Part shown: one piece after another, positions 3,435 to 37,025 of the stretch
Numbering within the stretch: the stretch's first letter is position 1
Layout: every line of letters begins with the position of its first letter
Origin: Thermococcus sibiricus MM 739
Lineage (GTDB): Archaea; Methanobacteriota_B; Thermococci; Thermococcales; Thermococcaceae
Direction of reading: 5' to 3'
Assembly (NCBI RefSeq): GCF_000022545.1
Contig: NC_012883.1
Coordinates: 1,232,276-1,296,275, forward strand
Length of the DNA stretch: 64,000 nt
The notes under the pieces: generated by a model
What the model was told of the DNA's origin: nothing
Database searches by the model: none
Seen by the model: only the letters and a program-made list of their open reading frames with translations
Program-made: the position numbers and the translations under genes

Positions 3435-4619
3435 TCACAAAATCTCCTTCCTCAATCCTATCCAGTTGACTTCTTCAACTTTCTCTCCATCAAGTGCCTT
3501 CTTTGAAATCTCGACAACATCTTCAAGGTTTTCAAAGGTGACATCTCTTCCTCCAAGGCCAATGATAAAGTCAAGCAATATTGGTTTCTCTTTCTCATTT
3601 ACAAGAGCTCTACCTGCATCTGCAAATACTGCTCCACCAATTCCAAAGCTTATATCCTTCTCAAGAATTGCCAAGACCTTTGCTTTCTTTGCTAATGCCC
3701 TGAACTCCTCAATTGGGAATGGCCTGTAAACGGTCATCTTCGCTGCACCGATCTTTAATCCCTCTTCTCTCTTCTTATCAATGAACTCCTTGAGTGTTCC
3801 AGCGAGTGAACCCATTGTGAGAAGAATTATCTCAGCATCATCAGTCTTGTACTCCTCAATCATGTGGTATCTTCTTCCGAACTTCTTCTCAAACTCGTCA
3901 AATGCCTCTGCAATTACTTGTCTCGCGTTCTCCATAGCTTCCCAAACGGTGAACCTTGCTTCCATATAGTGAGCTGGGAACCCAAGAGCACCTTGAGTAA
4001 TTGGCTTAGCTGGATCGAAGTAAGCATGTTTTGGTACATATTCCCCAAGGAACTCATCAACTACCTCTTGATCCGGTATTTCAACTGGCTCAACTGTGTG
4101 GGTCAATATGAATGCGTCAAATCCAACCATAGCTGGAAGCAAAACGCGTTCATCTTCTGCAACTTTGAAGGCTATCAATATCAAATCTAGTGCTTCTTGG
4201 TTATTTTCAGCATAGAACTGCATCCATCCGGTGTCTCTCTCACTTATTGTGTCTTGCCAGTCATTCCAAATATTAATTGGGGCACTCAACGATCTGTTAC
4301 CAATCGCCATAACAATTGGAAGCCTCATTCCAGCTGCAATGAAAAGGACCTCATGCATTAAGGCCAAACCTTGGGAAGCTGTTGCTGTAAAAGCTCTCAC
4401 TCCAGCAGCACTTGCACCAACACATGCAGAAATTGCTGAATGCTCACTTTCAACTTTTATAAACTCAGCATCCATTTCTCCATCAGCAACAAATTCACTA
4501 ATCTTCTCAGGAACGAGAGTTGATGGCGTAATAGGGAATGCAGCTACGACCTTAGGCTTTGCAAGTTTTGCTGCCCATGCAGCGGCTTCATTACCTTTCA
4601 TAACCTTTCTCATTGGCAT
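3435..4619 (-). CDS. porA: Pyruvate:ferredoxin oxidoreductase, alpha subunit
   Basis: PorA (394 residues) is the large subunit that supplies the pyrimidine-binding half of the TPP site. The family signature [10 protein letters not shown] lies near residues 27-36, and the ESEHSA motif near 57-62 supplies the conserved Glu. The stretch [13 protein letters not shown] is also characteristic of 2-oxoacid:ferredoxin oxidoreductases. It is about 40 percent identical by eye to the VorA protein encoded further upstream, and it sits 10 bp after porD. Length matches the known Pyrococcus protein. Confidence 0.95.
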
Positions 4620-4629
4620 TTATACCACC

Positions 4630-4947
4630 TCATTTGGTTTCTCTAACCATTTCAATTGCCTTGGTTGGACATTCATTTGCACAAATTCCACAACCCTTAC
4701 AGTAGTCGTAATCAAAAACTGGATAACTCTCTTCATCCAAATATATAGCAGGTTCTGGACAGAGTGTATAGCATATGAAACATCTAATACACTTGTCTTT
4801 GTCAAACTTGGGCATGAAAACTCTCCATCCACCTGTCTTGTTAACAACGCTACTTCCGGGAATGTAAACTATTGCACCTGTTGTCATCTTTTCACTATAT
4901 TCCTTTTGGACTTTCTCAATATCAGCTTTGAATGGATTTTCCGCCAT
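4630..4947 (-). CDS. porD: Pyruvate:ferredoxin oxidoreductase, delta subunit (2[4Fe-4S] ferredoxin)
   Basis: PorD is the ferredoxin-like subunit that wires electrons from the catalytic subunits to free ferredoxin. Two cysteine clusters are visible: C-x2-C-x2-C-x3-CP (CIRCFICYTLCP) and CKGCGICANECP. I choose the ATG at 4947, which gives 105 residues starting MAENPF, because GAGGTGG lies just upstream and the length then equals that of the Pyrococcus protein. A longer frame from 4986 would add 13 unlikely residues. VorD is a close paralogue with the same second cluster. Confidence 0.93.
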   Translation of the reverse strand: MAENPFKADIEKVQKEYSEKMTTGAIVYIPGSSVVNKTGGWRVFMPKFDKDKCIRCFICYTLCPEPAIYLDEESYPVFDYDYCKGCGICANECPTKAIEMVRETK

Positions 4948-5010
4948 ACATACCACCTCAAATGACTTACACTCTATTTCCCCCAAATCTTTTTATAAAA
5001 AATCTAAAAA

Positions 5011-5946
5011 TCAGCCGAAGATCTCGGCCTTCTTCTTAAGCTCTTCCCATTCCCTAAGCACCCACTCTTGGAGTATTTCCATGTCTTCCTTTGTCATGTA
5101 CTTAAATCTTCCTTGGAGCTTGAGGTACTCTTCAAGAGGCTTTGGCTCTTTCTTGGGCGAAGGCATGTTTAGCTTGTACTTTCCGTTTTCGTATTCGAAG
5201 AGTGGGAAGTATGCTGTCTGGACTGCTAAGCGAGCAAGTTCAATCGTTTTGTCTGTTGGGCTTCTCCATCCTGTTGGACAAGGTGCAAAGAGCTGAATGA
5301 ATGAAGGGCCTTTAATTGTCTTAGCCTTTTTGAGCTTTCTCATAAAATCTTCTGGGTATGCAACGCTCGCAGTTGCAGCATAAGCTGGCTTGTGGGCTAT
5401 AACTATATCAATAACCTTCTTCTTTGGCTTTCTCTCAAGGAAACGCTTCTTTCCGCCAGGAGTATTAGTTGTCCATGCTCCGTATGGTGTTGATGAAGAC
5501 CTCTGAATACCAGTATTCATGTAAGCCTCATTATCATACATGATGTACAATCCATCGTGACCTCTCTCAAGGAACCCACTTAATGCTTGGAGACCAATAT
5601 CTGCTGTACCACCATCTCCAGCCCATCCAACGACCATTACACCATCTTCGCCCTTAACTTTATATCCTTTTGCTTTCAGAGCAGCTTCAATTCCACCTAT
5701 TACTGCACCTGTGGTTTCAAAAGCTGTGTGGAATAGGGGAGCGTTGAAAGCGGAGTAAGGCCATGGCCCAGCTATGATTGTTGAGCAACAGGCCGGAATT
5801 GTAAATATTGTCTTATTTCCATATGCCTTAAGGACGTATCTCAATCCCAGAGCTGCACCACATCCTTGACAAGCTGTGTGTCCAGCATAAAAGTGCTCTT
5901 CAGCAGGAATTGTTAACTTCTTTTTCACATCAGCAGGAATTTCCAT
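5011..5946 (-). CDS. vorB: 2-ketoisovalerate:ferredoxin oxidoreductase, beta subunit
   Basis: VorB is the TPP-binding subunit of the branched-chain 2-oxoacid enzyme, which converts valine-, leucine- and isoleucine-derived keto acids to acyl-CoAs during peptide fermentation. It has CQGC near residue 27, the TPP motif [11 protein letters not shown] and the following [10 protein letters not shown]. The last stretch ([15 protein letters not shown]) is shared residue for residue with PorB. The chosen start, ATG at 5946, follows GGTGAAAACG. It lies 5 bp after the vorA stop, so translation is probably coupled. Confidence 0.94.
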   Translation of the reverse strand: MEIPADVKKKLTIPAEEHFYAGHTACQGCGAALGLRYVLKAYGNKTIFTIPACCSTIIAGPWPYSAFNAPLFHTAFETTGAVIGGIEAALKAKGYKVKGEDGVMVVGWAGDGGTADIGLQALSGFLERGHDGLYIMYDNEAYMNTGIQRSSSTPYGAWTTNTPGGKKRFLERKPKKKVIDIVIAHKPAYAATASVAYPEDFMRKLKKAKTIKGPSFIQLFAPCPTGWRSPTDKTIELARLAVQTAYFPLFEYENGKYKLNMPSPKKEPKPLEEYLKLQGRFKYMTKEDMEILQEWVLREWEELKKKAEIFG

Positions 5947-16602: not shown

Positions 16603-17805
16603 ATGGCATTTTTGAAAGTAGTTCCTCTGGAAAGGGCCTTAAACATAGTAAATTCATTGCCATTAAATGCAAAAATAGAAGAGATACCTCTTGAAAATGC
16701 CCTTGGAAGAATTTTAGCGGAAGATGTAACCTCTCCAGTAAACGTGCCCCCTTTTGATAGGGCCACTGTAGATGGATATGCCGTGAAAAGTGAAAACACG
16801 TGGAATGCAAATGAGAGTAACCCAGTCCGATTGAAAGTCATTGGAGAAGTTCATGCCGGCGAAGAGCCCAATATAGAGATAAACAGTGGTGAAGCTGTCT
16901 ACATATCCACTGGAGCTGTTCTTCCCAAAGGAACAGATGCAGTTATAGAATTCGAGATTGTGGATAGGGAAGGAGATGAAGTGTTAATCTACAAGCCGAT
17001 TTATCCCCAAGCCGGGGTCATGAAAGCTGGAACAGATATCCCCAAAGGAAAACTTCTTCTAAAAAAGGGAATGAAACTTGGATTTAAAGAGACAGCTTTG
17101 CTGTCTGCAGTAGGTCTTGAAAAGGTAAAAGTGTTTGCAAAACCTAAGATCGCAATAATCAGTACTGGGAATGAGGTAATTTTGCCTGGAGAAGAATTAA
17201 AACCCGGTAAGATATATGATATAAACGGAAGAGCCCTCAATGATGCGGTTAAAGAACTTGGAGGCGACCCACATTTTCTCGGAATAGCAAGAGATAATGA
17301 AGAGAGTCTAAGAACCAAGATCCTAGAGGGTTTGAAATATGATATAGTTCTGCTAAGTGGTGGAGCCAGCGGCGGGACTAGAGACCTCACAGCGTCAATA
17401 ATAGACGAACTGGGAGAAGTAAGAATACATGGGATTGCAATTCAGCCCGGAAAACCTACAATAATAGGTGTGATAAATGAAAAGGCTATTTTTGGACTGC
17501 CAGGTTATCCAACAAGCTGTTTAACGAATTTTACGCTTTTAGTAGCTCCTTTAATAAGAAAACTCCTCGGTGGAGAGTTTAAAATAGAGTACACAAGGAA
17601 AAGGCTCACCCACAAAGTGTTTTCCGTCAAAGGTAGAAGACAGTTTTTACCAGTTAAAATCAAAGAAGAAACTGCAATACCAATAATGAAAGGCAGCGGC
17701 GCTATTACAAGTTTCATAAACGCAGACGGTTTTGTGGAGGTTCCCGAAAATGTTGAAATTTTAGAAGAAGGAGAGGAAGTCAACGTAATTCTCTTCAAGT
17801 TCTAA
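16603..17805 (+). CDS. moeA: MoeA-type molybdopterin molybdenum/tungsten transferase
   Basis: MoeA inserts Mo or W into adenylated molybdopterin. In Thermococcales the metal is mainly tungsten, for aldehyde and GAPOR enzymes. The protein has the MoeA N-terminal PFDRATVDGYAV motif near residue 50, the GTDAVIEFE segment, and the MPT-binding domain. That domain has STGNEV near residue 185 and LLSGGASGG near 245, followed by KPTIIGVINEKAIFGLPGYPTS. ATG 16603 (400 residues) is preceded by GGTGG; the longer frame from 16516 overlaps the acidic gene by a few bases and lacks conservation. Thermococcales often have two MoeA paralogues, so I cannot say which this is. Confidence 0.88.
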   Translation: MAFLKVVPLERALNIVNSLPLNAKIEEIPLENALGRILAEDVTSPVNVPPFDRATVDGYAVKSENTWNANESNPVRLKVIGEVHAGEEPNIEINSGEAVYISTGAVLPKGTDAVIEFEIVDREGDEVLIYKPIYPQAGVMKAGTDIPKGKLLLKKGMKLGFKETALLSAVGLEKVKVFAKPKIAIISTGNEVILPGEELKPGKIYDINGRALNDAVKELGGDPHFLGIARDNEESLRTKILEGLKYDIVLLSGGASGGTRDLTASIIDELGEVRIHGIAIQPGKPTIIGVINEKAIFGLPGYPTSCLTNFTLLVAPLIRKLLGGEFKIEYTRKRLTHKVFSVKGRRQFLPVKIKEETAIPIMKGSGAITSFINADGFVEVPENVEILEEGEEVNVILFKF

Positions 17806-17882
17806 CTTGATTTTCTGGTATCCCCCCTTTTCCCGGATAAACTTTTAAATAACTCTCCCGTTATTAGGGTAGGTGAAGAGAA

Positions 17883-19250
17883 ATGATTGACATAAAGCTC
17901 ATTCGTGAAAATCCCGATCTCATAAAAGGGGATCTTATAAAGCGTGGAGAGCTTGAGAAGCTCCGATGGATTGATGAAATCCTTGAGCTAGATAAAAAAT
18001 GGAGAGAAAACCTAAAAGAGATCAATAATCTCCGAAGAGAACGTAATAAACTAGCTATTGAAATAGGTAAGAGAAAGAAAAGCGGAGAAGCTATAGATGA
18101 GCTCATAAAAAAGAGCGATAATATTGCAAAGCGCATCGAAGAGATTGAAAAAGAGAACAATATTATTAGGGAGAAAATTGATTATTACCTATGGCGACTT
18201 CCAAACATAACTCATGAAAGCGTTCCAATTGGAAAAGATGATACCGAAAATGTTCCAATTCGCTTCTGGGGTAAAGCAAGGGTTTGGGAAGGGCATTTAG
18301 AAACTTTTCTAGAGCAAAGCCAGGGAAAAATGAAATATGAAACTATCACCTGGAAACCTGAACTCCATGCAGATTTATTGCCTAAAATCGGTGGCGCCGA
18401 TCTAGAAAGAGCTGCAAAAGTTAGTGGTGCAAGATTCTTCTATCTATTAAACGAGCTAGTTATTTTAGACCTTTCACTAATAAGATTTGCATTAGATAAA
18501 CTCATAGAAAAAGGTTTTATCCCGGTGATCCCCCCATATATGGTGAGAAAGTATGTGGAAGAGGGAGTCACCAGTTTCGGGGACTTTGAAGATGTCATAT
18601 ACAAAATCGAAGGGGAGGATTTATACCTAATTCCCACTTCAGAACATCCCCTTGCAGGAATGCATTCAAACGAGATTCTCGATGGACACAACTTGCCTAT
18701 TCTTTATGCTGGCGTAAGCCCTTGCTTTAGAAAAGAAGCTGGGACTGCAGGAAAAGACACTAAAGGGATCTTCAGAGTGCACCAATTCCATAAGGTGGAA
18801 CAATTTGTGTATGCAAGGCCGGAAGAAAGCTGGGAATGGCATGAAAAACTTCTCCAAAATGCGGAAGAGATATTCCAAGCCCTTGAAATCCCATACAGGA
18901 TTGTAAACATATGCACCGGAGATTTAGGGTACGCTGCAGCCAAAAAGTATGACATTGAAGCATGGATGAGTGCACAGGGTAAATTTAGAGAAGTGGTAAG
19001 CTGCTCAAATTGCACTGAATGGCAGGCCAGAAGATTGAACATAAGGTTTAGAGACAAACCGAATGAGAAACCTCGCTTTGTTCACACTCTCAACTCAACA
19101 GCAATAGCAACTTCAAGGGCAATAGTGGCGATTATAGAAAACTTTCAAGAAGAGGACGGGACTGTTAAAATACCAAAGGCTCTCTGGCCATACACTGGCT
19201 TTAAAGAGATTTTACCAGTTGACAAAAGAGAAAAGTGTTGCCAAAGCTAG
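17883..19250 (+). CDS. serS: Seryl-tRNA synthetase
   Basis: A 455-residue class II aminoacyl-tRNA synthetase. The N-terminal coiled-coil arm (about residues 30-105, rich in Lys and Glu) clamps the long variable arm of tRNA-Ser. Motif 2 is recognisable in FRKEAGTAGKDTKGIFRVHQF, split here by its central loop, and motif 3 is near residue 402 (LNSTAIATSRAI). The start ATG 17883 follows GGTGAAG, and a TATA element AACTTTTAAATAAC lies near 17839-17855. The C-terminus ends with CCQS. It is convergent with rnp4, with only 2 bp between the genes. Confidence 0.95.
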   Translation: MIDIKLIRENPDLIKGDLIKRGELEKLRWIDEILELDKKWRENLKEINNLRRERNKLAIEIGKRKKSGEAIDELIKKSDNIAKRIEEIEKENNIIREKIDYYLWRLPNITHESVPIGKDDTENVPIRFWGKARVWEGHLETFLEQSQGKMKYETITWKPELHADLLPKIGGADLERAAKVSGARFFYLLNELVILDLSLIRFALDKLIEKGFIPVIPPYMVRKYVEEGVTSFGDFEDVIYKIEGEDLYLIPTSEHPLAGMHSNEILDGHNLPILYAGVSPCFRKEAGTAGKDTKGIFRVHQFHKVEQFVYARPEESWEWHEKLLQNAEEIFQALEIPYRIVNICTGDLGYAAAKKYDIEAWMSAQGKFREVVSCSNCTEWQARRLNIRFRDKPNEKPRFVHTLNSTAIATSRAIVAIIENFQEEDGTVKIPKALWPYTGFKEILPVDKREKCCQS

Positions 19251-33840: not shown

Positions 33841-34210
33841 CCCCTCATCACGACCACCAAAAAATGGTAAAATAACAGCTTTATAAGTGTTTTGAAAGAG
33901 GCAATGAGACTCTTAAGATAAGCTTGGCATCACCTCCAGAAAATTATAAGCCGCAAAGAAGCTTTCCGACAGCTTTGGACACTTTATTATTAAGTTTCTT
34001 TTTATTCTTCATTCTTCTTCTTTTGAGGCTTTTATTGGTTCTCTAAATCAATCTTGAAACAGAACAAGATATCTCACTTAACATTTAGCGGTATGCGAAG
34101 CCCATAAGGGCTTTGGTGAGCGAACCACATATTCACTGTTAGCAGACCCGAAGGGCAAGGTGCGAGGCATCGCAGAGTGTCCACCGTCGACACAGTTCAT
34201 AATCATTTTA
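33841..34210. other. Gap between the wHTH gene and the GIY-YIG gene
   Basis: 370 bp contain no convincing gene. The left part (33841-34080) is AT-rich. It holds the winged-helix gene promoter and a short minus-strand start GGAGGTGATGCC near 33930-33941, which reads only five codons before a stop. The right part, 34085-34200, is GC-rich and is described separately. Confidence 0.6.
34085..34200. repeat. GC-rich imperfect tandem repeat / candidate structured RNA
   Basis: This 116-bp stretch is clearly richer in G and C than its surroundings. On the minus strand, two units align loosely. One runs CGCACC, GCCCTTCGGG, GCTAA, AGTGA. The other runs CGCTCACC, GCCCTTATGGG, GCTAA, AGTGA. Each GCCC...GGG part can fold into a short hairpin. 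It lies directly downstream of the GIY-YIG gene stop at 34211 on that gene's strand. No known RNA family is recognised. It could be a 3' UTR structure, a guide-like RNA or a repeat from an element. Confidence 0.45.
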
Positions 34211-34921
34211 CTACCTATTTTTAACCCAAGTTTTAGTTTTTCTGATCAGTTTTTCAATAACTGGCATATCTTCCTCGGTTATCCCTTCTGCGTTAAGATG
34301 CTGTATAATCCACAATCCTGATGTCCGTATTTCTTTCTTTGGTGAATAATTACCAAGCCAATTCATTGATGGTTTACATATTGTGCATTTGGACACAGTA
34401 CCGATAAGTTTGCTTTCAAGTCCTTTGCTTCCAATTCTTTCCTTTTCGTCTTCAATAATTATGAACCTAAAAAAGAAATTTTTTCTAAGTATTTCTGTAA
34501 TCTGCTTCTCAATAGATTTTTCTTTTTCTATGTCTCTTAAATGACTGTATTTGTCTCTATTGGTTCTAGGTGTGAAATCTATTTCCCATACTTTTAAGTA
34601 AGGGTCTTTATTTTTATTGAGCAGAGCTCTTCCTATATTCTTTCTAAAAATGCTTCTATCGGAAGGTTTTGGATTATTTCTGCCAAAATCCATTTTTTTC
34701 TCATTGATTAAAAAATGCTCTGCTATTCGATTTCTGAAATTATTTCCTTTATGTGTGCCTATGCGAACTAGTCTTAACTTTTCGCCACCATGACCCCATA
34801 TTTCCCCTTTTTCATAAAAGAAATAAATCCCATTAAGAGGTAATGATTCTAATCTAAATGGATATTTAATTAATGGTAGCTCCTCTAGTATTTCATGTAG
34901 CCACTTGCATTCTTCACTCAT
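34211..34921 (-). CDS. GIY-YIG superfamily nuclease
   Basis: A 236-residue protein with the GIY-YIG fold. NGIYFFYEKGE (near residue 30) is the GIY strand and RLVRIGTHKG (near 50) the YIG strand. Next come an Arg/His pair (FRNRIAEH, near 62-69) and the helix SDRSIFRKNIGRAL near 89. A later Glu in GLESKLIG (near 171) is followed by SMNWLGNYSP. The invariant Glu and the NWLG Asn are in the catalytic order of R.Eco29kI-like enzymes. It is translated from an ATG that overlaps the DUF6884-like gene by 8 bases, so the two act together. The AT-rich surroundings suggest transfer. Confidence 0.72.
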   Translation of the reverse strand: MSEECKWLHEILEELPLIKYPFRLESLPLNGIYFFYEKGEIWGHGGEKLRLVRIGTHKGNNFRNRIAEHFLINEKKMDFGRNNPKPSDRSIFRKNIGRALLNKNKDPYLKVWEIDFTPRTNRDKYSHLRDIEKEKSIEKQITEILRKNFFFRFIIIEDEKERIGSKGLESKLIGTVSKCTICKPSMNWLGNYSPKKEIRTSGLWIIQHLNAEGITEEDMPVIEKLIRKTKTWVKNR

Positions 34922-35345
34922 TTTTTGTCACCTGATTAATTTCAGATAGATGCGTAAATAATTTCACATTTAATCCCTTACTCCCTACTTCTTCTATCAA
35001 TTTTTTATACAATTGATGGAACCGTCCAGGATTATGATAAAACCAGATTTCGTCGTATCCTGAAAGCCGTTGGATGAAATTATTAACTAAAATTTGAAAT
35101 TCTTCTGGTGTTACCTTACTTGGGTGCTTGTCGTACCACTCGATTTTATCTTGTGGGAGAACTATACCGTATTTGTCGGAAAATATTGCCCAGTCAACTC
35201 CTTTATCTTTACATTTTTTAACAAAACGCTGAAGTGGTATTGCAGTATATAGCCTATCAGGAGTAACTTTCTTTTTTGTTCCACGAAGAGAATCATCTTT
35301 TTTAGCTGAACAATGAGTAATATATATTCTTTTTCTTTTACTCAT
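34914..35345 (-). CDS. DUF6884-like protein
   Basis: A 143-residue protein that follows the DUF6884 pattern. It has YITHCSAKKDD near residue 8 (family SCSKKK), DRLYTAIPLQRF near 30-41 (family LYTASPLF) and WAIFSDKYGIVLP near 52 (family W-ILSAKYGLL-P), followed by DKIEWYD. DUF6884 occurs in phage and defence or base-modification contexts; its biochemistry is not settled. It is the first gene of the two-gene unit and overlaps the GIY-YIG gene by 8 bases. Upstream lies an AT-rich spacer. The assignment is by motif recall, so it is moderate. Confidence 0.65.
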   Translation of the reverse strand: MSKRKRIYITHCSAKKDDSLRGTKKKVTPDRLYTAIPLQRFVKKCKDKGVDWAIFSDKYGIVLPQDKIEWYDKHPSKVTPEEFQILVNNFIQRLSGYDEIWFYHNPGRFHQLYKKLIEEVGSKGLNVKLFTHLSEINQVTKNE

Positions 35346-35678
35346 TTTTAGCCTCCCCTCAAACCTAATGGACTCTTAATCTTACTCAAACCTTTCATTA
35401 GTAATGTAACTATAAATCTTTTTTGTTTTTAAATTTTGATACTGTCAGAACAACTGTAGTCCTACCTTCCCTGCTTTCAACACCACCTCGTAAACCAAAA
35501 ATACCACTATCCCGTCAATTGCGATGAAATTTCTCTGTTTTTGTTTGGGTGAAAAGATTTTAAGGCTAAAACCACCCAGTATATAATGGTTTCAGCCCTT
35601 ATTTTCCCTCTTTCTTCTGAAGTATCATCAGAGGTTTAAACCTACCCCCCACCGCTTATCCCAAAAGTATGGAGAAAT
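35346..35678. other. Gap upstream of the DUF6884 gene
   Basis: 333 bp without a gene that I can support. It is AT-rich on the left with the promoter of the DUF6884-GIY-YIG pair. Near 35640-35660 a run CCTACCCCCCACCGCTTATCCC resembles the C-rich run at 1361-1370, so a decayed IS605-type end is conceivable but weak. I see no RNA gene. Confidence 0.4.
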
Positions 35679-36098
35679 TCAGGATTGTTGTCTTAGAGCA
35701 ACCCTAGGCAAGGGGATAGGATACGGAATCCTCATTTCCTTTGAAACAACCATTATCAATGGAGTTATCTCATTTGTGATAAAGTTTACTATCTCTGCGA
35801 ACATTTCTGAAGGAATCCTTTTTTCTTTCTCCCAACCATCGAGTATTTCATCAATTTTTTCCTTTTGTGGTGGAAGGTAAAAGACAGCTCCACTTACAGA
35901 CGCTCGAGCAATTTCTGGGTTATAACCTATTTGATACGTGAAAAGAACCTCTATACCATTTACTTTACCTGAAGGAGTCTTTATCTCACCCAATCTTACC
36001 TCTTCAACCTTTGGTGAAAGATTAATCTCTACTTTACCTGCAACTCCTCCTTGCTTTTCTATTTCAACTTTGGTAATGTTAACACCAAACACAGGCAT
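35679..36098 (-). CDS. Conserved hypothetical protein, possibly SecB-like fold
   Basis: This 139-residue protein begins MPVFGVNITKVEIEKQGG. It has four alternating strands (KVEINLSPKVEEVRLGEI, IEVLFTYQIGYNPEIARASVSGAVFYL), then helices, and ends ITNEITPLIMVVSKEMRIPYPIPLPRV. The strand/helix order and the final helix with a Pro-rich PYPIPLP tail resemble SecB-type chaperones. The resemblance is by pattern only and should be tested by structure prediction. The start follows GGAGGTGTAA. It faces the nucleotidyltransferase gene across an 84-bp divergent promoter. Confidence 0.55.
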   Translation of the reverse strand: MPVFGVNITKVEIEKQGGVAGKVEINLSPKVEEVRLGEIKTPSGKVNGIEVLFTYQIGYNPEIARASVSGAVFYLPPQKEKIDEILDGWEKEKRIPSEMFAEIVNFITNEITPLIMVVSKEMRIPYPIPLPRVALRQQS

Positions 36099-36947: not shown

Positions 36948-37025
36948 GCGGTGGTAGTCTAGCCTGGTCTAGGACAGCGGCCTGCCACGCCGCGGGCCCG
37001 GGTTCAAATCCCGGCCACCGCACCA
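36948..37025 (+). tRNA. tRNA-Gly (anticodon GCC)
   Basis: The acceptor stem GCGGTGG pairs with CCACCGC. The anticodon stem GCGGC/GCCGC holds the loop CTGCCAC, giving anticodon GCC. The T loop is GGGTTCAAATCCC, and the 3' CCA is encoded (37023-37025). A TTTATAAA TATA box lies at 36909-36916, 32-39 bp upstream. High GC in the stems suits hyperthermophily. No intron is present. Confidence 0.97.

Follow-up and report, generated by a model that had tools for sequence, protein, structure and literature searches.

A mobile gene pair of Thermococcus sibiricus encoding a DUF6884 protein and a likely divergent GIY-YIG nuclease, with a possible role in modification-dependent restriction

The gene pair

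The window (the whole stretch of DNA analyzed, 64,000 nucleotides from Thermococcus sibiricus MM 739) carries two small genes on its minus strand, here called M57A and M57B, whose frames share 8 bases, as a preliminary description of this DNA had reported.

34914-35345, minus strand: M57A, a DUF6884 protein of 143 amino acids (open frame, read as an ORF)
34211-34921, minus strand: M57B, a GIY-YIG-like protein of 236 amino acids (open frame, read as an ORF)
34914-34921, minus strand: the 8-base overlap of M57A and M57B (read off the sequence)
35346-35455, minus strand: candidate promoter and leader of the pair (sequence reading only)

The overlap suggests that translation of the two genes is coupled, and AGGTGA, which resembles a ribosome-binding site, stands immediately upstream of the M57B ATG. 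By the same kind of reading, the candidate promoter region contains an AT-rich TATA-like element, AAAGATTTATAG, and a ribosome-binding-like GGGGAGG.

A recent insert holding two genes

33905-35680, no strand: lineage-specific insert (~1.8 kb) holding M57A and M57B alone; right limit approximate
33906-33981, minus strand: remnant of an IS, namely the 3' end of its transposase gene and a degenerate terminal inverted repeat (by sequence identity)

The pair was gained on a recent insert of ~1.8 kb. Compared by blastn with the closest relative (G082, with flanks ~95% identical), homology ends at 33904 and restarts at 35701, the insert taking the place of 27 bp in that genome; the last codons of the neighboring gene seem to be retained at the right limit. 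All nine same-genus relatives compared are missing the insert, and in eight of them ~0.1 kb separates the two flanking genes (one of the HTH type, the other at 35679-36098). A GC content of 34-36%, against ~39-40% in the surroundings, bears out the AT-rich patch of the preliminary description, and so does the gene content its remark that no methyltransferase is adjacent: the insert holds M57A and M57B and nothing that would serve as a cognate methyltransferase.

At the left edge of the insert, 33906-33921 forms a degenerate terminal inverted repeat with 2 mismatches, and the stretch 33906-33981 is 86-89% identical to transposase 3' ends or IS ends of three other Thermococcales genomes. The tRNA-Gly gene (36948-37025), the only element above threshold in an Rfam scan, had been named as the neighbor of the accessory patch. 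We reject it as integration or attachment site: it lies outside the insert, separated from the insert's end by ~1.25 kb and by two conserved genes.

As a separate observation, in the ninth same-genus relative (G077; L051:1814-3753) a broken transposase occupies the same intergenic site, and a second transposase splits the TPR-like neighbor gene; this spot seems to be prone to insertion.

Distribution and selection

Among 94 Thermococcales genomes, a protein search recovered M57B from one and from none of the other 93; the M57B family model matches 1 of 115 genomes of the phylum. The closest relatives are genes 81% and 80% identical and in the same order in a metagenome-assembled genome of the Thermoplasmata, another phylum (L002). 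Between the window and this locus dN/dS is 0.11 for M57A and 0.10 for M57B, the mark of purifying selection, which keeps both genes functional. Because of this identity and a dN/dS of ~0.1, M57A and M57B appear to have travelled jointly between phyla; a same-order pair with these values on either side of a phylum boundary is more than a chance coincidence.

General collections had little to offer. Neither protein was matched in the phage search or by NCBIfam, the plasmid search left M57A unmatched, and in PHROGs M57B was unmatched and M57A drew weak matches to unnamed families alone. One further match, at L026, was set aside as a spurious reading within GC-rich DNA.

A catalogued candidate family

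The pair is of a kind already catalogued, as PDC-M57, a candidate of PADLOC-DB 2.0.0 (models PDLC04712-04714). Both halves are listed there, which agrees with the earlier suggestion of a defense candidate. The two families are the same, and here they are adjacent and overlapping; the PDC-M57B profile matches M57B at E=5.3e-66 over practically its whole length (residues 1-226 to profile positions 1-209 of 211), whereas M57A represents a divergent branch, with a weak PDC-M57A match (E=1.1e-3, residues 5-95) that is mirrored by a like score for the 80%-identical L002 protein. PDCs are candidate defense systems that come out of a "guilt-by-embedding" approach (a preprint by Payne et al., cited in PMC12988326), and the majority have yet to be tested by experiment. 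Our full-text literature search found no paper in which PDC-M57 was named or tested.

M57B, a likely divergent GIY-YIG nuclease

GIY, YIG, Arg/His, Glu and Asn motifs had been read in M57B in nuclease order, a claim that survives in part. Across 13 homologues Y33 (of "GIY"), R53, G55, T56, R65, H69 and E169 are invariant, so that the first Tyr, the Arg/His pair and the Glu stand. The Tyr of "YIG", on the other hand, is replaced by Arg (V-R-I-G-T-H), and the proposed catalytic Asn is unconserved, the invariant signature at that place being W-L-G; the same alignment rules out both as conserved features. An AF2 model (pLDDT 90) runs beta-beta-alpha-alpha...beta-alpha, the order of elements known in GIY-YIG domains, with R65 and H69 lying on the first helix and E169 where the late helix opens.

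Profile comparison points the same way. In hhalign, M57B against canonical GIY-YIG domains scored 30.3 (probability 51%), with GIY-RIG-R-H aligned exactly; the maximum in 100 column shuffles was 18.0 (0/100 reached 30.3), and the reversed profile gave 12.5. Swapping query and template lowered the probability to 18%. For scale, the archaeal DUF123 profile, a clan-mate, reached 52% against the same canonical set, and a direct comparison of M57B with DUF123 gave no signal in the GIY region. Pfam returned no M57B match above threshold and GIY-YIG clan matches below it. Although the M57B model is a confident one, Foldseek searches with it brought up no GIY-YIG structure (the lowest E values were 3.4 in the PDB and 0.5 in BFVD), and PDB sequence searches, single and profile, yielded chance matches only. 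The fold proposed in the preliminary description is thus backed by profile comparison and not by structure comparison. On the motifs and the profile comparison, with the structure searches giving no confirmation, M57B is likely a divergent GIY-YIG nuclease.

M57A, a distant relative of YaaA and DpdC

M57A scores 30.1 bits as a protein and 29.5 in a genome scan against Pfam DUF6884 (PF21818), for which the gathering cut-off is 30 bits, and a profile of DUF6884 genes that stand unpaired in Thermococcales matches it at E=8.6e-13. The DUF6884 pattern read earlier holds for C12, K16, S56 and G60, and Y71 is retained as well; where the family has LSAxxG, M57A reads FSDKYG. With this replacement, M57A may bind without the usual chemistry.

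A profile search of the PDB ranked YaaA first (5caj, E=0.017). As to a YaaA-like "cantaloupe" fold, the AF2 model of M57A (pLDDT 73) did not recover YaaA among the top 50 Foldseek matches (best E 0.01); the likeness to nucleoside 2'-deoxyribosyltransferases suggested there (E 0.01, TM 0.44) is weak, and we do not rely on it. Taken at the level of sequence, M57A looks like a distant member of the YaaA/DpdC kindred. Pfam's curators see DUF6884 as related to YaaA, which binds DNA; Bacillus subtilis YfjM, a DUF6884 protein, is one of the proteins found to bind abasic or RNA-base lesions, and has been modelled flipping a nucleotide into its own pocket (PMC11701544). DpdC, another DUF6884 member, is required for formation of dADG in 7-deazaguanine-modified DNA (PMC11888242), and together with our own DpdC matches this upholds the link to base modification drawn in the preliminary description. 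For example, the protein in the M57A position at L025 matches two profiles, DpdC (E=3e-36) and PDC-M57A (5e-5), and the DUF6884 proteins of L100, L101, L104 and L023 match both profiles at E <1e-3. Most activities known for DUF6884, or encoded next to it, thus deal with unusual nucleic-acid bases.

Pairing and fusion across loci

We surveyed 22 M57B loci from Thermococcales, Thermoplasmatota, another archaeal MAG, haloarchaeal plasmids and viral contigs, using a DUF6884 profile built solely from Thermococcales genes unpaired with M57B. At 18 of them a DUF6884 gene lies next to M57B, is fused to it or is found a few genes away, so the pair is kept together, a point on which the preliminary description had staked its system. 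Adjacency holds at nine (the window, L002, L023, L024, L027, L028, L031, L033 and L063), in pairs that usually overlap and that span Thermococcales, Thermoplasmatota and viral contigs; the 8-bp overlap recurs in L023, and 4-bp ATGA overlaps occur in L031, L033 and L063. At five more (L005, L007, L020, L022 and L025) the DUF6884 gene lies within a few genes. The remaining four are fusions, two with the GIY part first (L029, 466 aa; L030, 591 aa) and two with DUF6884 first (L034, 420 aa; L035, 599 aa). Assignments at L030, L035, L025 and L007 combine weak profile matches (E 0.004-0.02) with C...K and S-A motifs read in the sequence, with extra support from a PADLOC match for L025 and L007 and from annotation for L007. 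No DUF6884 gene occurs in the stretch examined around M57B at L003, L006 and L008, or at L021 up to the end of the record, which cuts the locus.

In a small tree of DUF6884 proteins, GIY partners fall on at least three branches, which suggests that the pairing originated, or was swapped, more than once. The independent fusions and recurrent overlap are strong evidence that M57A and M57B form one functional unit. The compact two-gene unit on accessory DNA of the preliminary description is thereby sustained, with the lineage-specific insert and carriage by mobile DNA. One locus, L027 (G284), has the same DUF6884-M57B pair twice, at 4298-5441 and 17388-18531, ~13 kb apart.

The pairing bears on two other readings. 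Homing is a frequent role of GIY-YIG enzymes, and M57B might be a selfish nuclease, either free-standing and of the homing type or a weapon of viruses or plasmids against competitors, with M57A providing the targeting. Homologues on viral contigs and plasmids and the IS relic at the edge of the insert would suit such an element; the constant partner and the fusions in both orders would not, and neither an intron, a broken target gene nor an insertion site conserved between the window and L002 is present, so that we consider this quite improbable. A toxin-antitoxin-like arrangement, in which M57A neutralizes a toxic M57B, would fit small overlapping genes on mobile DNA, but natural one-chain fusions, stand-alone M57B loci (L003) and the kinship of M57A with enzymes that act on DNA render it very improbable indeed.

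Neighborhoods of homologues and of unpaired DUF6884 genes

Genes near M57B homologues include Cas4-like, DndB/DpdB-like, methyltransferase, HerA, HNH (type IV-like), NACHT-HsdR and SIR2 genes; these are small raw counts from a survey of archaeal genomes, plasmids and viral contigs. In the window and L002, no defense gene sits beside the pair. At L025:4631-7450 (G324), M57B appears to share an operon with three other genes, for a 135-aa protein, a DUF6884 protein of the DpdC type and an HNH endonuclease resembling type IV enzymes. On the viral contig L034 (4701-8701), QueC, the DUF6884-GIY fusion, a SIR2-like gene and a nucleoside-deoxyribosyltransferase-like gene follow in a row, and the vicinity of L023 holds a DpdB/DndB-like gene and a methyltransferase.

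Some of these neighbors could speak for a miniature modification and restriction system, in which M57A, being DpdC-like, would alter a host base to mark self and M57B would cut unmarked DNA: the DpdC homology, the QueC gene adjoining the L034 fusion, and the DpdB/DndB-like gene with a methyltransferase near L023. Yet DpdC requires preQ0 already inserted by DpdA/DpdB, neither of which is in the insert or beside most pairs, and the altered LSA motif may mean that catalysis is lost. We regard such a system as distinctly unlikely.

Unpaired DUF6884 genes of Thermococcales have immediate neighbors of two identifiable kinds:

L101:1270-2799 (G076), L104:1342-2865 (G048) and L100:368-1770 (G071): DUF6884 gene with a TGT/DpdA-like gene (PADLOC DpdA, E 1e-16, 2.5e-16 and 7e-9, respectively)
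L099:650-1893 (G029) and L102:1450-2858 (G011): DUF6884 gene with an AGOG N-glycosylase/DNA lyase gene (E 6e-27 and 3e-25, respectively)

The first arrangement is a candidate archaeal 7-deazaguanine DNA-modification operon, judging from gene content.

Several further associations were seen along the way. A conserved ~280-aa protein accompanies DUF6884 at L096:577-1902, L098:1465-2791 and L105:1471-2797, with no Pfam match in the two scanned (L096 and L098). On the Haloarcula plasmids L005, L006, L020, L021 and L022, M57B lies inside a conserved plasmid block, with an ArdC-like gene upstream, an HNH gene that converges on it and overlaps its 3' end and, downstream, usually DUF6610 and sometimes DUF6884. 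The L025 protein also led to DUF6884 genes on enterobacterial plasmids; in the one neighborhood read, no GIY-YIG gene is annotated.

Proposed function

We propose that the pair is a mobile two-protein DNA nuclease, a member of the candidate system PDC-M57 acting in type IV-like, modification-dependent restriction, a reading whose chances we put at about even. M57A would bind DNA and inspect, or flip out, a base outside the ordinary A/C/G/T set, and would then recruit M57B, whose GIY-YIG site (Tyr33, Arg65/His69 and a metal-holding Glu169) would nick or cut nearby; both molecular roles are taken from the respective families. The target would be the modified DNA of an invading virus or plasmid, and because restriction would depend on modification, no methyltransferase would be needed. 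As the most concrete candidate target we suggest a 7-deazaguanine-type base, given the DpdC kinship of M57A, its DpdA-linked relatives and QueC beside the L034 fusion, few loci though these are.

The main rival is DNA repair: M57B would nick at a damaged base or ribonucleotide that M57A recognizes, the two forming an accessory base-excision or incision module useful in a hyperthermophile. Lesion binding by YfjM (PMC11701544), the AGOG glycosylase genes next to DUF6884 genes in Thermococcales, and the rank of YaaA, an oxidative-stress DNA-binding protein, as top PDB profile match all lend themselves to this account. A housekeeping repair function, however, should be more widespread than a pair that one Thermococcales genome in 94 carries and that sits on a recent insert, and would not readily explain carriage by viral contigs and plasmids or the often defense-like neighbors of homologues; we think repair unlikely. 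Modification-dependent restriction is favored over it because the pair is mobile, patchy and virus- or plasmid-borne, with defense-like neighbors in homologues. The signs of mobility are the insert, the IS relic, the viral contigs and the haloarchaeal plasmids; carriage by viruses and plasmids also fits counter-defense or competition between elements.

Comparison with known systems

CMoRE / PD-T4-3, a type IV enzyme, joins a GIY-YIG nuclease to a modification-sensing domain (PMC12923530), and offers a direct precedent for the division of labor between sensor and cutter. It resembles the pair in uniting a GIY-YIG nuclease with a modification-sensing part so that a methyltransferase is not needed (PMC12923530). 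Unlike the pair, it is a single protein, its sensor domain is unrelated and recognizes 5hmC/5ghmC, and its motif reads GIYxY-YIG (PMC12923530); the proposed sensor of the pair is DUF6884, and the second Tyr is Arg in M57B.

The Dpd system (DpdA-K) shares with the pair a DUF6884 protein, DpdC, that acts on 7-deazaguanine in DNA, and at L025 a DpdC-type protein takes the M57A role. The insert, in contrast, lacks DpdA and DpdB, and the partner is a GIY-YIG nuclease, to our knowledge not among the known Dpd components. YfjM of B. subtilis and YaaA of Escherichia coli are likewise DUF6884 or distantly related DNA-binding proteins, and the flipping of a nucleotide at a damaged site proposed for YfjM recalls what we propose for M57A. 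Both are known as single genes, and neither is known to have a GIY-YIG partner.

Significance

As far as the literature searched shows, what is new here is the Thermococcales insert, the two-way fusions, the DpdC-type member at a homologous locus and the DpdA and AGOG neighborhoods of sister genes. The fusions in two orders, the DpdC-type protein of L025 and the DpdA- and AGOG-linked relatives give rise to a testable model of a base reader joined to a cutter. Should the pair prove to be a repair enzyme, DUF6884 would gain a function. A bolder possibility, which we judge unlikely, is that this is the first restriction system to read 7-deazaguanine in DNA, a DpdC-derived and perhaps catalytically altered DUF6884 protein recognizing the base and the GIY-YIG nuclease destroying the DNA; if so, a viral anti-restriction modification would itself become the target of a GIY-YIG nuclease. 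Whether host enzymes attack 7-deazaguanine-modified viral DNA has been posed as an open question (PMC5567051). If the pair is such an enzyme, it would answer that question and yield a thermostable tool for mapping modified bases.
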